Source: Halobacillus sp. Marseille-Q1614 (lineage in GTDB: Bacteria; Bacillota; Bacilli; Bacillales; Halobacillaceae). Taken from it: DNA of 64,000 nucleotides. A program made the position numbers and the translations under genes. The stretch covers positions 930,001-994,000 of the forward strand of contig NZ_CADDWH010000001.1 of NCBI RefSeq assembly GCF_902809865.1, written 5' to 3'. This document shows positions 43,380 to 49,689 of this stretch, piece by piece; within the stretch, counting starts at the first letter, position 1, and the number at the start of each line of letters is the position of its first letter. The notes under the pieces are model-generated. The model was given only the letters and a program-made list of their open reading frames with translations. It had not been told where the DNA came from and did no database searches.

Positions 43380-44093
43380 CTAATTGGACTGTCCGTATTT
43401 GCTTTGTTTATAAAACTCATGGAAAATTTTCATTAGAGCTCTTTTTTCAATGCGTGAAACGTAGCTCCGTGAGATGCCCAGCTCTTTAGCTATCTCTCTT
43501 TGGGTCCGCTCATCCTCATCATTTAATCCGTAGCGAAAGACGATGACTTCTTTTTCTCTATCGTCTAAAACACCTATATACTGTTTTATTTGTTCAATCT
43601 CCATATGAAGCTGAATTTCTTCAACCACATCAACGACATCTGCCTGCAAAATATCGAGCAGATTTAGTTCATTGCCTTCTTTATCGTGACCGATTGGATC
43701 TTGCAAAGAGATGTCCTTGCTCATCTTTTTAGTCGAACGTAAATGCATCAGGATTTCGTTTTCAATACAACGGGCGGCATAAGTGGCTAACTTGGTTCCT
43801 TTGCCTGTTGAGTAGCTCTCTATCCCTTTAATAAGGCCGATAGTCCCGATTGAAATTAGGTCTTCAAAATCCTCCTTCGTGTTTTCAAACTTTTTTACAA
43901 TGTGAGCGACGAGACGCAGGTTATGTTCGATCAGCTTATCTCTGGCTTCTTTGTTCCCTTCTTTCATCAGCTGAAGCTGTTTAGCCTCTTCCTCTTTGGA
44001 TAGGGGATTAGGAAACGCTTGGTTTTTAACATAAGACAGAAAAAACAGTGATTCTTTAAAAAAGTACAGAATGGAAGCGATCAAACTGCTCAA
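43380..44093 (-). CDS. sigK: RNA polymerase sigma-K factor, uninterrupted
   Basis: Sigma-K drives late mother-cell genes in sporulation. The N-terminus is a hydrophobic pro-sequence, then [13 protein letters not shown], the region where SpoIVFB cleaves; next come region 2 ([54 protein letters not shown]) and region 4 ([22 protein letters not shown]). TTG 44093 lies nine bases from AAGGAGG and gives a 20-residue pro-sequence; ATG 44099 is only three bases from it but remains possible. In Bacillus subtilis the gene is split by the skin prophage after the ARCIENEI segment; here it is continuous. Confidence 0.95.
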
Positions 44094-44177
44094 ACACATA
44101 CACCTCCTTATAGATTGGGCATCTGCCTACCACAAGTGTATGTGCTGATAAGTTATCCCGTGCCTGTACGCGGGAAA

Positions 44178-44208
44178 TTAAAAAGCAGTCAACGTGTGCT
44201 GACTGCTT
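44178..44208 (-). terminator. Terminator of the mrp operon
   Basis: Stem AAGCAGTCA / TGACTGCTT (44183-44191 with 44200-44208); read on the minus strand it is followed by TTTTAATTT. It overlaps the last codon and stop of mrpG. Confidence 0.8.
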
Positions 44209-44587
44209 AACGATTATCTCCCTGCTGCTTTGTCTCCATATGTTCTTTCCATTCATCGTAGCCGCTCTTCTCTGAAAGGGGAACACCACTTTTATAAGCT
44301 GCCTTTCCAATCATATGACCTGCGACAGGCGCAGTCAGCATAATAAAGACGATCCCTAACAGTAATTTGCCGCTGACCACTTCTTGCTCAACATACATGA
44401 AGATAAAGGCTGCAATTAGTATTCCCGATACCCCTAAAGTAGCCGCCTTAGAGGCCGCGTGTAAACGAGTATATACATCTGGAAACCGAATAACCCCTAT
44501 GGACGCAGAGATTAAAATAAAGGTACCGAGCAGCAGGGAGATCCCAATGAAGATATATAAAATGATGTCAATCCATGTCCCGGTCAA
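44207..44587 (-). CDS. mrpG: Mrp cation/proton antiporter subunit G
   Basis: A 126-residue membrane protein with three segments (IILYIFIGISLLLGTFILISAS, AATLGVSGILIAAFIFMYV, LLLGIVFIMLTAPVAGHMIG) and the family's GVIRFPDVYTRLHAASKA loop. The start is TTG 44587, eight bases after AAAGGGTG on the minus strand, overlapping the mrpF stop by 20 bases. It is the last gene of the operon. It is needed for assembly of the hetero-oligomeric antiporter. Confidence 0.93.
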   Translation of the reverse strand: MTGTWIDIILYIFIGISLLLGTFILISASIGVIRFPDVYTRLHAASKAATLGVSGILIAAFIFMYVEQEVVSGKLLLGIVFIMLTAPVAGHMIGKAAYKSGVPLSEKSGYDEWKEHMETKQQGDNR

Positions 44588-44879
44588 TTATAACACCCTT
44601 TTCTATAAATTTAGCTAATGCGATCGTTCCAATAAATAAGAGGATCCCGATTAACAAAATAACATCATTTAATTGATTAGTGACTAATAAAATCGCAAGA
44701 ATTCCTGCCAGACCCATAACATTTACCCCTAAACCGTCTACAGCTAAAATGCGGTCAGGATTTGAGGGTCCAAACAGCACACGGTACAGCAGGAGAAGAA
44801 CGGATATGGAGACACCTATGATGGATATAACTGCTGCTATATTTACGAAAGCACGGGTAACTTCAAGTGTCTGTTCCAT
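44568..44879 (-). CDS. mrpF: Mrp cation/proton antiporter subunit F
   Basis: A 103-residue protein with three membrane segments (VNIAAVISIIGVSISVLLLLY, VNVMGLAGILAILLV, DVILLIGILLFIGTIALAKF) and the MrpF-type loop LFGPSNPDRILAVDGLGVNV. The ATG shares one base with the mrpE stop. It belongs to the Mrp complex, which exchanges sodium for protons and supports pH and salt homeostasis. Confidence 0.94.
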   Translation of the reverse strand: MEQTLEVTRAFVNIAAVISIIGVSISVLLLLYRVLFGPSNPDRILAVDGLGVNVMGLAGILAILLVTNQLNDVILLIGILLFIGTIALAKFIEKGVIIDRDMD

Positions 44880-45355
44880 TAGCGAGTCACCTCCAAAATT
44901 GCTTTTTCAAAGGTTTCCTTAATTTCTTTAACAGAAGCCTCTATGTCTGGTATATCCATGGCGTGAATATACAAAGTTGATAAATCTTCGCTGACTTCAA
45001 GAGTCAGCGTGCCGGGAGTCAAAGAAATCAGGTTGGCAAGCAGAGTAATTTCCCAATTATTGTTTAGCTCAATAGGCAGGCGGAATATCCCCGGCTGAAC
45101 GTCGATTTTTGGCTTGTAAACCATTTTTATAATATCAATGTTCGATAATATCAGCTCTCTAATAAACAGAAGCAGCAGCTTAATAATACTGATCACTCTC
45201 TTCATGTAAAAAGAGCCGGGAATGAACCGTTTCATTACATAAAGCAGGGCAATCCCTATAATATAACCTACTAAGAAAGTAGTGAAAGTATAGGTCTCAC
45301 TTAGGAACATCCACATAAACGCTACTATAATGTTTAGCACAATTTGAAAAGTCAT
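44879..45355 (-). CDS. mrpE: Mrp cation/proton antiporter subunit E
   Basis: A 158-residue protein with N-terminal membrane segments (IVLNIIVAFMWMFLSETYTF, VGYIIGIALLYVMKRFI) followed by a soluble part with the MrpE signature: QPGIFRLPIELNNNWEITLLANLISLTPGTLTLEV and LYIHAMDIPD. It overlaps mrpF by one base and follows mrpD by seven. Identification secure. Confidence 0.95.
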   Translation of the reverse strand: MTFQIVLNIIVAFMWMFLSETYTFTTFLVGYIIGIALLYVMKRFIPGSFYMKRVISIIKLLLLFIRELILSNIDIIKMVYKPKIDVQPGIFRLPIELNNNWEITLLANLISLTPGTLTLEVSEDLSTLYIHAMDIPDIEASVKEIKETFEKAILEVTR

Positions 45356-45362
45356 AAGTTAA

Positions 45363-46850
45363 TTACTCCTTTAGTACAGAATCAATATAGATTTGTGGAT
45401 CCATTAAATATTCTCCCATCCACTCAATGGAAGGATAAAACCATTCTGCACCTACCCCTAAAAGGATAGTAAATGAGAGTAATACTCCTATCGGCCAGCT
45501 CATTTGATTGGCTGTCCGGCTTCTTTCTGGGTGAGGGGGCGATTCCTTACGCTCTCCCCAGAAGCCGCGGATGAAAACCCTGATCATTGAAAATAAAATA
45601 AGCAGGCTTGAGACGAGAGAAACGATGACAATCATAATTTCTTCTTCTGCCAGCCCTCCCTGGATGAGAAGAAGCTTTCCTATAAATCCGCTAAATGGAG
45701 GGATTCCTGCTAAGACGAGAGTCCCTATAAACATAAACCACCCAAGCACTGGATAGTGATGGATTAAACCGCTCATTTTTCTTAAATCCGAAGTTCCGGC
45801 TACATAAACTACGGTACCAATGAGCAGAAACAAGGCACCTTTTATAACCATATCATTGATCAAATAATAAATGGTTCCACTGATGGAAGTTTCTGTGAAA
45901 ATCCCAATCCCCATCAGCATAAAACCGACGGCTGGGATAATGTTATAAGCAACGATTAATTTAACGTTGTTTGTTGATAAAGCACCAATAACCCCAAATA
46001 TCATAGTTAATGCTGCAAGATAAATAAAGATACTATGGGTAAGGCCCGTTTCCCCTACAAAGATGAGTGTAAATACACGCAGGAGCGAATAAATACCCAC
46101 CTTTGTCAATAATGCCCCAAATAGGGCAGATACAACGGGATTAGGTACGATGTAAGGGTTTGGCAGCCAGTAATAAAGCGGGAAAACGGCCGCTTTCGTT
46201 GCAAAAACGAAGAAGAAAAGAATACCGATCGTCGTTAAAACCCCAGGCTGATCAACTTCCTGAACACGCTGTGCAATTTGCGCCATATTTACTGTTCCTA
46301 CTACTGAATAAAGGAATGATATGGTTGTTACGAACAGGATAGAGGAAAATAAGTTAATCAGCACGTATTTAAGTGACTCACGCAGCTGAACTTTTCCATT
46401 GCCTAAAACGACCAATCCGTATGACGCCATTAGCAGAACTTCAAAAAACACGAAGAGGTTAAATAAATCACCGGTTAGAAAAGCTCCGCTTACTCCACTG
46501 ATCAGCATGAAGAAGAAACTGTAAAAGTAGAAAGACTCCTGTTGCTTTGTTAATGATTTTGGCGCGTAGAAAATGCAGGCCGTTGCAATGATATTAGTCG
46601 TTAACACTAAGACAAGAGCTAATAAGTCTCCTACTATTATGATACCATAGGGTGCTTCCCATCCCCCTGTTTCTAATACAATAGTTCCGTTATTGAGTAC
46701 GTGAACAAAAACAAAAGAAACTAAAATTAAATTGAACACCATAAAAAATTGGGAAGCTTTTCGCACGACAGGTTTATTTTTGTTTAAAAAGGCCGCCAGC
46801 ACTCCAGCTATGAGCGGCCAGGCTATTGTTAATGCTAGTAAGTTACTCAT
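45363..46850 (-). CDS. mrpD: Mrp cation/proton antiporter subunit D
   Basis: A 495-residue, 14-segment membrane protein related to the proton-pumping NuoM/NuoN subunits of complex I. The proton-channel region is seen in VFFEVLLMASYGLVVLGNGKVQLRESLKYVLINLFSS (conserved Glu and Lys), PLYYWLPNPYIVPNPVVSALFGALLTKVGIYSL and VKLIVAYNIIPAVGFMLMGI. It overlaps mrpC by eight bases. Within this operon, next to mrpA and mrpE-G, a Mrp role is far more likely than complex I. Confidence 0.95.
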   Translation of the reverse strand: MSNLLALTIAWPLIAGVLAAFLNKNKPVVRKASQFFMVFNLILVSFVFVHVLNNGTIVLETGGWEAPYGIIIVGDLLALVLVLTTNIIATACIFYAPKSLTKQQESFYFYSFFFMLISGVSGAFLTGDLFNLFVFFEVLLMASYGLVVLGNGKVQLRESLKYVLINLFSSILFVTTISFLYSVVGTVNMAQIAQRVQEVDQPGVLTTIGILFFFVFATKAAVFPLYYWLPNPYIVPNPVVSALFGALLTKVGIYSLLRVFTLIFVGETGLTHSIFIYLAALTMIFGVIGALSTNNVKLIVAYNIIPAVGFMLMGIGIFTETSISGTIYYLINDMVIKGALFLLIGTVVYVAGTSDLRKMSGLIHHYPVLGWFMFIGTLVLAGIPPFSGFIGKLLLIQGGLAEEEIMIVIVSLVSSLLILFSMIRVFIRGFWGERKESPPHPERSRTANQMSWPIGVLLSFTILLGVGAEWFYPSIEWMGEYLMDPQIYIDSVLKE

Positions 46851-47181
46851 AGTCGTTTCCCCTCAATTGTTCCATATTGTCTGTCCCGTTTAATTTAGAA
46901 GCCCGATAAGCTAATACAAGCAATAAACTGGTAACGCCGAAGCTGATAACGATGGACGTCAGTATTAGCGCTTGGGGCAGAGGATCTGTATACTGTTCTA
47001 TCCCCTCCGTTAAAATTGGAGGAGCCCCGCGCTTTAATTCTCCCATTGTCAGGATGAAAAGGTGGGCTCCATGGGAGATTAAAACAGTCCCAATAATAAT
47101 ACGAAGCAATTGTTTTTGCAGGAGGTTATAAACGCCGGCAGCAAATAGGATGCCGGCTAGAATGGCCATAGTTATTTCCAT
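46843..47181 (-). CDS. mrpC: Mrp cation/proton antiporter subunit C
   Basis: A 112-residue protein with three membrane segments, related to NuoK: MAILAGILFAAGVYNLLQ, LLRIIIGTVLISHGAHLFILTM and ALILTSIVISFGVTSLLLVLAYRA. The ILTSIVISFGVTSLLL segment is the MrpC hallmark. Its ATG lies three bases after the mrpA stop and its ribosome site AAAGGAGGAA is inside the last codons of mrpA. The gene that normally separates them, mrpB, is not present. Confidence 0.94.
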   Translation of the reverse strand: MEITMAILAGILFAAGVYNLLQKQLLRIIIGTVLISHGAHLFILTMGELKRGAPPILTEGIEQYTDPLPQALILTSIVISFGVTSLLLVLAYRASKLNGTDNMEQLRGNDYE

Positions 47182-47184
47182 AGG

Positions 47185-49515
47185 TTATTCCTCCTTTTTT
47201 CTGCCTAAGCGAATTAAACTATAGATCGCCATCGCTGCTATACCGAGCACTGCAATTTCAAACAGCGTATCAAGGCCCCTGAAATCAACCAGGATGACGT
47301 TAACGATGTTGTCACCGCCTCCGAGTTTATAGGAATTATCAACAAAGTAGCTTGAAATGGAATTAAACAATTTGTTGCTGTGAGCAGAGATAGCAATCAT
47401 TGTCAGTAACAAACCAAATCCAATGGATAATACCAGGTTTAATGAATTAGTTAATACTGAATCCTTACGCACTTCCAGATCCGGCAAGTGTCTGAACACG
47501 AGCAGAAATAGAGCTACCGTTACCGTCTCAATAATAAATTGAGTCAGTGCCAGGTCAGGTGCGCGATAGAGCACAAACAGCATCGCTAATCCATATCCAA
47601 CAACCCCAAGGATAAGAATTGCAGCAATCCTTTTATTGGCGATACTTGCCCCTACAGCTGCAACTATCATTAGAGCGGCGATAATAGATTCAGGAATGGT
47701 AACTTCTGATAAGTTGTTAAATTCCATCGAGAAACCGCCTGTGAAGGCCATCACACTAAATGTAACTATTAGTATGGCAGATAGAATTAAACGGACGTAA
47801 CGGCCTAGTGAGCCGTTCATATAGCCGTTTGTAACAATAACTGAATAATTTTCAGTTCGATCGACAAGACCGTCATAGAACTTATTTAAGCTTAACTTGC
47901 CGGGAACAGCTCTATATACAGCCTGCCACTTAGTTCTTGTTAGATACAGAATAGTACCGAATACGAGTACTGCGATCGACATTATGAAAGGAGGAATAAT
48001 TCCGTGCCAGAAATAGATGTCTTCTGTAATTGTTGTGCCTCCTACTGCAGAAGCGGCATGTTCGATGAACGGCTTATTGATTAAGCTTGGGAATAAACCA
48101 ATAATGATCACTCCGGCTACGAGCACGATCGGTGAAATCAGCATGCCGACCGGGGCTTCATGAGGCTTTTTAGGCAGCTTTTTGATGTCAGCCTGTCCCC
48201 TGAAAGTCCCGAAAAAGAAATACATAGAGTAAACAAATGTGAAGATACTTCCAAATACCGCTAAATACGGAATTAATGTCTGCAATACGCCGGCCAACCC
48301 GCTCGTTGCAGATTCCAAGTGTAAGGAAGCATCAAAGAAGAATTCTTTACTGTAGAATCCATTTAAGAACGGAAGGGGAACTCCAGCCATGGAGAACGTC
48401 CCAAAAATAGCAAGTGTTGCGGTTATAGGCAGGAATGTCATCAACCCGCCCAGCTTACGGATGTCACGGGTACCCGTTTCATGGTCTACTATTCCGGCAA
48501 CCATAAATAAACTTCCTTTAAAAGTGGCGTGGTTAAGGATGTGGAAGACTGCAGCAAATATTGCAATCTCTGTACCAAAACCAAGCATAGCCATAATCAT
48601 ACCTAGCTGACTGATGGTGGAAAAAGCTAAAATCGCTTTTAAATCCGTCTGCCTTACTGCCATATATGAACCCCAGCACAATGTGGCAATACCAACAGTT
48701 GATACGATAATGAAAAACCACTCGGAAGAAGAAAGCATAGGAGAAAAGCGGGCAACTAAAAAAATTCCTGCTTTAACCATAGTTGCCGAGTGTAAGTAGG
48801 CACTTACTGGGGTCGGAGCTTCCATCGCATCTGGGAGCCAGATGTGGAAAGGAAACTGTGCAGATTTTGTAAATGCGCCTAATAGAATAAATCCTAAGAT
48901 CAGCGGGAAAAACTCATGGTTTAATATCAGCTCCTGCTGGCTGAGCATTTCCTGAATGCTCGTAGTGTTCGTAATTACGCTCAAGAACACCAGACCGCCT
49001 AGCAGGCTTAATCCGCCGAAAACGGTAATCAGCATAGATTTTAAAGCTCCGTATCGGGAAGCTTCCCTATAGTTCCAAAAACCTATCAGCAAGAATGAAG
49101 ATAGTGATGTAAACTCCCAGAACGTATAAAGTACAAATACATTATCTGAGAGAACTACTCCGAGCATAGATCCCATGAATAGCAGGAAATATACATAAAA
49201 ATGACCCAGCTGCTCTGATTTATGTAAATAATAAATCGAGTAGAAAGCAACTAGGGAGCCAATACCACTAATCAATAATACAAATAGTAAGCTCAATCCA
49301 TCCAGATGAAAGACAAGATTCATGTCCAAAGATGGCACCCAGGAATATTCTTGGGTTACAGGTTCAAAACCTGCTCCTAAAAATTGTACAAAATAAATAA
49401 AGATCACTACAGGTACAGCCGTTGCTACAAAACCCGTGTGAAACTCGTTTTTCCATTTGCTTAACAATGGAATGAAGATTGCGATAATAAAAGGCAATAA
49501 TACAGCCAGTAGCAT
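47185..49515 (-). CDS. mrpA: Mrp cation/proton antiporter subunit A
   Basis: A 776-residue membrane protein of about 21 segments, homologous to NuoL of complex I. The start is the ATG at 49515 (MLLAVLLPFIIAIFIPLLSK), eight to ten bases after GGGAGGA; an ATG at 49545 would lie upstream of that site. Signature parts: LIGFWNYREASRYGALKSML, PFHIWLPDAMEAPTPVSAYLHSATMVKAGIFL, the DLALTQFIIETVTVALFLLVF part (MbhD-like) and the C-terminal DNIVNVILVDFRGLDTLFEIAVLGIAAMAI (MbhE-like). It ends as unfused MrpA (about 800 residues) does, so MrpB is not fused to it. Confidence 0.96.
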   Translation of the reverse strand: MLLAVLLPFIIAIFIPLLSKWKNEFHTGFVATAVPVVIFIYFVQFLGAGFEPVTQEYSWVPSLDMNLVFHLDGLSLLFVLLISGIGSLVAFYSIYYLHKSEQLGHFYVYFLLFMGSMLGVVLSDNVFVLYTFWEFTSLSSFLLIGFWNYREASRYGALKSMLITVFGGLSLLGGLVFLSVITNTTSIQEMLSQQELILNHEFFPLILGFILLGAFTKSAQFPFHIWLPDAMEAPTPVSAYLHSATMVKAGIFLVARFSPMLSSSEWFFIIVSTVGIATLCWGSYMAVRQTDLKAILAFSTISQLGMIMAMLGFGTEIAIFAAVFHILNHATFKGSLFMVAGIVDHETGTRDIRKLGGLMTFLPITATLAIFGTFSMAGVPLPFLNGFYSKEFFFDASLHLESATSGLAGVLQTLIPYLAVFGSIFTFVYSMYFFFGTFRGQADIKKLPKKPHEAPVGMLISPIVLVAGVIIIGLFPSLINKPFIEHAASAVGGTTITEDIYFWHGIIPPFIMSIAVLVFGTILYLTRTKWQAVYRAVPGKLSLNKFYDGLVDRTENYSVIVTNGYMNGSLGRYVRLILSAILIVTFSVMAFTGGFSMEFNNLSEVTIPESIIAALMIVAAVGASIANKRIAAILILGVVGYGLAMLFVLYRAPDLALTQFIIETVTVALFLLVFRHLPDLEVRKDSVLTNSLNLVLSIGFGLLLTMIAISAHSNKLFNSISSYFVDNSYKLGGGDNIVNVILVDFRGLDTLFEIAVLGIAAMAIYSLIRLGRKKEE

Positions 49516-49689
49516 CTGGTTGTTCCTCCCTCGGCCTAAGTTCATAGAAGTGTTGTTGTTTCACTCAATTGTAATCAAAAAAACATAAATTATTCAACTA
49601 TCTACTATTTTTAAGGAGTATTGAGCAGAGAGTTTTTTCAGTTTTTTATAAATAAGAAGAAACTCGTTAAAAATAGGTTAAAAAAATTT

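Follow-up and report, generated by a model that had tools for sequence, protein, structure and literature searches.

Organization of the mrp operon

The window (the whole stretch of 64,000 nucleotides analyzed, from Halobacillus sp. Marseille-Q1614) contains a six-gene mrp operon on its minus strand. When its open reading frames were examined for Pfam domains, the order mrpA-C-D-E-F-G given in the first-pass annotation was confirmed, and mrpB was absent from the cluster. The first gene, mrpA (47185..49545, stop at 47187-47185), was read as an open frame of 786 amino acids. Its product carries the Proton_antipo_N, Proton_antipo_M, MbhD and MbhE domains. Judged from the sequence, the true start is probably the internal ATG at 49515 (776 aa) rather than 49545 (786 aa); the ribosome-binding site GGGAGGAAC precedes this ATG. 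The operon continues on the same strand with mrpC (46843..47181, ATG from 47181; 112 aa; Oxidored_q2, 89 bits), mrpD (45363..46850; 495 aa; Proton_antipo_M, 171 bits; over the cut-off of NF005818), mrpE (44879..45355; 158 aa; MNHE, 148 bits), mrpF (44568..44879; 103 aa; MrpF_PhaF, 53 bits) and mrpG (44207..44587; 126 aa with a TTG start; PhaG_MnhG_YufB, 95 bits). A terminator-like hairpin with a T tail lies at the end of mrpG (44183..44208, minus strand) as a consensus match only, and the consensus scan found 11 such sites in the region against 6.5 expected by chance.

Three bases (47184-47182) separate the mrpA stop from the mrpC ATG, as had been noted before, and this junction (47182..47184, minus strand) is the spot where linked operons, those with mrpB in the cluster, hold that gene. 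The coding-strand sequence across it is AAAAAAGGAGGAATAACCTATG, from which it can be seen that the end of mrpA and the ribosome-binding site of mrpC, GGAGG, overlap. None of the six Mrp proteins of the window has an MnhB domain (Pfam), in agreement with the earlier statement that MrpB is neither separate nor fused in this operon. Fusion of mrpB onto mrpA was ruled out, as MrpA lacks the domain. Its C-terminus is the normal one, with MbhD and MbhE, and the protein scores over the cut-off of the NCBIfam model for the unfused subunit A (NF009285; 1042.5 vs 1028 bits) and below those of the longer models NF009288 (809 vs 1104) and NF009284 (679 vs 962).

About 100 bases past mrpG, an uninterrupted sigma factor gene, which we take to resemble sigK, is found on the same strand (43380-44099, minus strand). 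A sigma factor match was also seen within about 1.5 kb after mrpG, on the same strand, in 8 of 20 split operons, that is, operons without mrpB (L093-L097, L106, L108 and L109).

The displaced mrpB gene

The source genome (3.98 Mb in three contigs, 99.99 % complete) was searched for PF04039 (MnhB), as the first-pass annotation had proposed. A single match was obtained, outside the window (C1:1330845-1331219, minus strand, 120 bits), and the distance from this mrpB to mrpE (MNHE) is 356 kb. MbhD and MNHE likewise match once each in this genome, in both cases within the operon of the window. The first-pass annotation had named a second complete mrp operon, or an mrpB elsewhere that is co-expressed with this operon, as findings that would count against it: a distant mrpB is present, at the ccd locus, and a second set was ruled out by the single matches to the three domains MbhD, MNHE and MnhB.

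The orphan gene encodes an intact MrpB of 146 amino acids and is located between ccdA (DsbD_TM) and ccdC (PF07301), all three on one strand, with 68 nt between the ccdA stop and the mrpB start. The protein passes the cut-offs of PF04039 and NF009223. Among solved structures, its closest relative is the MrpB chain of 7qru (7qru_B, E-value 5.6e-45), and it aligns with residues 785-912 of the fused chain 7d3u_A, which has 958 residues. The motif PGGGF is retained, as are the alignment columns that linked MrpB proteins conserve. This motif is described as strictly conserved and located at the putative sodium exit path in the accessible part of PMC9568556; it was present in 40 of the 41 MrpBs compared here and missing in G118. 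In the MrpB tree the protein of the window's genome has a rather long branch (0.59 vs 0.20 for G017). In the source genome mrpB is thus displaced, not lost.

Distribution of the split arrangement

All 44 genomes from the family of the source genome (GTDB) contain both MnhB and MNHE. When positions were compared by eye, the best MnhB was on another contig than the best MNHE or hundreds of kb away from it in 44/44, so the comparison with close relatives that had been suggested returned the same separation throughout. The first-pass annotation called the arrangement a notable deviation. It does deviate from the textbook operon but is not specific to this organism, being the rule in the family (44/44) and occurring in several related families too. 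One MnhB and one MNHE are present in 43 of the 44 genomes; the exception, G030, carries another, adjacent pair, in which MNHE contains an internal stop. All 30 family orphan loci given adjoin ccdC, and ccdA was also seen in 26.

In a sample of 199 genomes of the order, MnhB was found in 169 and MNHE in 169; among the genomes listed, the same 20 lack a match to either. The order-wide comparison of positions comprised 150 MnhB rows, many of them with no listed partner, from 141 genomes out of the 169 that had a match. Among the matches listed, in genomes with a listed CcdC, none of the 68 MNHE-linked MnhB rows adjoins ccdC, and 27 of the 32 rows far from a listed MNHE do. The remaining five of the 32 appear, among the matches listed, to be second copies in two-operon genomes; going by family, the genomes of these rows have two MNHE matches, one of them among the matches listed.

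Named genomes were scanned with an alignment of 12 of the 21 orphan MrpBs, and the best 80 loci were kept. These are not a census, and consist of 37 orphans at the ccd locus, 41 linked loci and 2 others (Gracilibacillus halophilus and Lysinibacillus fusiformis). The mrpB of G. halophilus lies between yneF and the p142 gene, with neither ccdA nor ccdC beside it (L180). Orphan carriers include Halobacillus, Thalassobacillus, Pontibacillus, Oceanobacillus, Ornithinibacillus, Lentibacillus, Gracilibacillus, Alkalibacillus, Salinibacillus, Piscibacillus, Terribacillus, Alkalihalobacillus macyae, Bacillus taeanensis and Fictibacillus. The operon itself was checked in five named split genomes (Gracilibacillus halophilus, Oceanobacillus salinisoli, Pontibacillus marinus, Fictibacillus enclensis and Halobacillus andaensis), and all five have A-C-D-E-F-G and one MNHE each. 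The Oceanobacillus of this check is O. salinisoli and not O. iheyensis, for which two mrp clusters are mentioned in the available text of PMC5703873.

An independent displacement in L. fusiformis (L232) was ruled out, as two complete A-B-C-D-E-F-G sets are present in addition to a stray mrpB. In strain S4 5007-2 this stray gene (L232:2983-3414) lies away from both mrp operons. Locus L194, from a record titled Roseburia sp. 1XD42-34, shows the tkt-yneF-ccdA-mrpB-ccdC neighbourhood typical of halophilic Bacillaceae, and the title is probably wrong. Second sets with MnhB in open frames of about 247-256 amino acids were observed in nine genomes (G030, G254, G263, G273, G289, G300, G303, G311 and G348); each of these MnhB matches is 1.5-2 kb from a weakly scoring MNHE, and the sets appear to represent a different Mrp-like type. 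In G289 it is the sole set.

Comparison of split and linked loci

The comparison covered four sets of 20 loci each: split operons, orphan loci, linked operons, and ccd loci from genomes of the linked type. In the last set, 19 loci come from the same genomes as the linked operons and the remaining one from G179. The gene order is A-C-D-E-F-G in 20/20 split operons and in that of the window, and A-B-C-D-E-F-G in 20/20 linked operons. The gap between mrpA and mrpC ranges from -1 to 7 nt in the 17 measurable of 21 split operons; the junction is thus tight where mrpB is absent. In linked operons mrpA and mrpB overlap by 4, 11 or 14 nt (18 of 20, the other two having no full mrpA read) and mrpB and mrpC by 1 or 0 nt (20/20).

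Across the order, mrpB directly follows ccdA in 19 of the 20 orphan loci, with yneF in that place in G118, and ccdC was seen at 18 (not in G100 and G162). The spacing from ccdA to mrpB is tens to about 250 nt, on the same strand, in 20/20 measured genomes. No mrpB was found in any of the 20 ccd stretches that come from linked genomes, and both ccdA and ccdC were seen in 16 of these stretches. In some lineages ccdA and/or ccdC were unseen beside the displaced mrpB, which is still in place (L010, L021, L029 and L032 of g6; L122, L132, L264, L275 and L281 of g56; L129 of G118; and L180). Consensus scans found no terminator-like or promoter-like site between ccdA and mrpB. At the ccd locus, five promoter-like sites were found against 6.3 expected by chance; because this is no more than chance, they are silent on control and were dismissed as a clue to it.

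Phylogenetic analysis

When MrpC, MrpD and MrpE of 41 genomes were combined in one tree (quick search, no bootstrap), the split operons formed one side of one branch (SH-aLRT 100). In the MrpB tree of 41 genomes, a single branch likewise separates the displaced MrpBs from the rest (99/91; 98 % of 200 bootstrap trees). Both trees were drawn with midpoint roots. As one branch sets apart the displaced MrpBs in one tree and the B-less operons in the other, a single ancient relocation, common to many salt-tolerant Bacillus relatives, is probable. Among the best 80 loci of the named-genome scan, the linked A-B-C order is found in Paenibacillus, Halomonadaceae, Rhodococcus and other non-Bacillaceae loci, the exceptions being the mistitled-looking L194, Guptibacillaceae and Fictibacillaceae. 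From this linked order we infer that the displaced state is derived.

MrpA was compared in 17 split and 19 linked rows (G100, G074, G078, G224 and G139 were left out, and the read of G075 is short). MrpA of the split clade lacks about 13 residues near 326, 6 near 502 and 1 near 109, and has 2 extra residues at 389-390. The extra residues fall in the motif VPLPFLNGF here, compared with LPPFNGF in 6z16_A and 7qru_A.

Joint presence and absence of the two loci

Family f13 was represented by 120 genomes drawn from a larger group. An mrpB was considered displaced when MnhB was not within 6 kb of MNHE, and an operon B-less when MNHE was not within 6 kb of MnhB; a sub-cut-off MNHE of G284 and the second piece of the MnhB of G304, whose displaced mrpB was read in two pieces, were omitted, and a contig-end MnhB fragment of G277 was kept. 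Both parts are present in 83 of the 120 genomes and both absent in 35, and 2 are mismatched. The mismatched genomes, G296 and G339, consist of about 200 and 260 contigs, and G339 is 80 % complete. Of the 83 genomes with both parts, 81 have one of each and 2 have two of each (by listing, G258 and G277, with about 180 and 150 contigs); the 35 with neither comprise 24 with linked sets only and 11 with no set. Several of the neither-part genomes are single-contig assemblies. Genera g88, g104, g112 and g126 each include both-part and neither-part genomes, as does g123, where the assemblies are fragmentary.

The one-of-each genomes of f13 contain 42 MnhB-MNHE pairs that share a contig and are more than 6 kb apart, pairs made with second sets included; in 34 of the 42 the separation is 264-481 kb. 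Thirty MnhB loci of f13 were given; 24 are orphans, all adjoining ccdA, and 6 are linked. As some f13 linked sets looked close to some of the queries, re-insertion of mrpB into a split-type operon was considered; it was ruled out for the six sets inspected, in which the A, B, C and D proteins resemble the linked G208 type more closely than those of the window.

The joint loss of two distant loci, counted here per genome, is hard to explain unless their products belong to one machine. In 20 split genomes, simple MrpB distances correlate with those of MrpCDE when CcdA is allowed for (partial r 0.51, permutation p 0.0005); the value for MrpB and CcdA, with MrpCDE allowed for, is 0.13.

Discussion

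Group 1 Mrp systems (also Mnh, Sha, Pha or CPA3) are encoded by mrpABCDEFG; examples are those of Bacillus subtilis and B. pseudofirmus OF4. The present system is like them in its seven separate subunit types, with an unfused MrpA carrying MbhD and MbhE, a separate MrpB with PGGGF, and MrpC, D, E, F and G, the other six genes being in canonical order. It is unlike them in that mrpB lies hundreds of kb off, by ccdA, so that there is no single seven-gene cluster, and in that MrpA of the split clade has its own indels. With group 2 (mrpA'CDEFG, where MrpA and MrpB are fused) it shares a six-gene operon in which mrpA is directly followed by mrpC; however, MrpA here has no MnhB domain, is too short and scores below the cut-offs of the fused models. 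As in group 3 or irregular clusters (cyanobacteria, Microbacterium, Pyrococcus), the ABCDEFG order is broken, but the examples in the accessible parts of PMC5703873 and PMC8415708 keep mrpB genes inside the cluster, whereas in this case a single gene has moved out of a cluster that is regular in other respects. Group 3 is defined in the available text of PMC8415708 as an irregular cluster without mrpA; in the present case mrpA is there and the other six genes are canonically ordered.

Two or three groups of mrp clusters are described in the accessible sections of PMC5703873, PMC8415708 and PMC9568556, and those sections make no mention of a displaced mrpB. In the excerpts available, PMC10203224, on genomes of halophilic relatives, refers to 'the mrpABCDEFG operon' and PMC8389477 to 'mrpA-G' in Pontibacillus, both with no remark on position. 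No account of mrpB displacement was found in the open-access literature, covered mainly by titles and the starts of abstracts, subscription papers being outside this scope.

The system is very probably, on the sequence comparisons above, an ordinary seven-subunit group-1 Mrp Na+/H+ antiporter that came to be encoded at two loci through one ancient relocation. In an ancestor of a large, mostly salt-tolerant set of Bacillaceae-like families, mrpB would have left the slot between mrpA and mrpC once and landed just downstream of ccdA, in the ccdA-ccdC locus for cytochrome c maturation, and the gap left behind would then have closed to the tight junction. The ccd locus would be the source of MrpB, perhaps by way of the ccdA transcript; the protein would insert into the membrane and join MrpACDEFG in trans, giving the usual complex with its presumed antiport activity. 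According to the accessible part of PMC9568556, MrpB is a four-helix subunit lining MrpC, the C-terminal domain of MrpA, MrpF and MrpG, and MrpE touches the MrpB of the other protomer. Such a structure does not depend on all subunits being made from one shared mRNA.

The first-pass annotation stated that MrpB is needed for antiport in the systems tested, a requirement reported, to judge by the title, in a 2009 paper by Kajiyama, and left two readings side by side, a distant mrpB or a complex that works without it. The sole MnhB of the genome, at the ccd locus, and the joint presence and absence of the two parts support the former, and nothing was found in support of the latter. A functional six-subunit complex, with the distant MnhB protein serving another purpose, deserves hardly any credence: the indels of the split-clade MrpA (two shorter loops and the 389-390 insertion) could in principle compensate for a missing subunit, but in f13 the displaced mrpB and the B-less operon are kept or lost together, the displaced protein retains the conserved MrpB columns, and the source genome has no other MNHE or MbhD protein with which it could partner. 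That the gap is an artefact of assembly or sequencing can practically be dismissed, given a clean junction with its ribosome-binding site and the same layout in other family genomes, in the operons of 20 relatives and in 5/5 named split genomes.

The conserved, same-strand neighbourhood of the displaced gene (20/20 measured genomes) might be taken to mean that MrpB has gained a second role in cytochrome c maturation while still serving Mrp. We consider this highly improbable, as mrpB stays where its neighbours were not seen: ccdA was not observed beside it in g6 (4/4 loci) or G118, nor ccdC in g56, and Gracilibacillus halophilus retains it with neither. Moreover, MrpB distances track Mrp and not CcdA, and linked genomes have ccdA and ccdC without an mrpB there (both seen in 16/20 stretches). 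It is also conceivable, though unlikely, that its place beside ccdA puts MrpB under separate control as an assembly factor. The number of completed Mrp complexes would then follow the biogenesis of cytochrome c and the respiratory chain, and the MrpA indels would reflect adaptation to an MrpB supplied in trans. If this were true, antiporter number would be set by more than the mrp promoter alone.

Taking the two-locus antiporter as the preferred reading, the finding is moderately interesting rather than startling, and the case does not point to an antiporter able to dispense with MrpB. Annotations commonly presume an mrpABCDEFG operon, and cloning the operon of such a halophile alone would yield an antiporter that lacks MrpB. 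Membrane complexes mostly have their genes clustered; here a core subunit gene left an otherwise regular operon, it seems a single time, and has remained separate across a wide radiation, yet the displaced mrpB goes missing together with the operon. These bacteria offer a natural experiment on what holds operons together.
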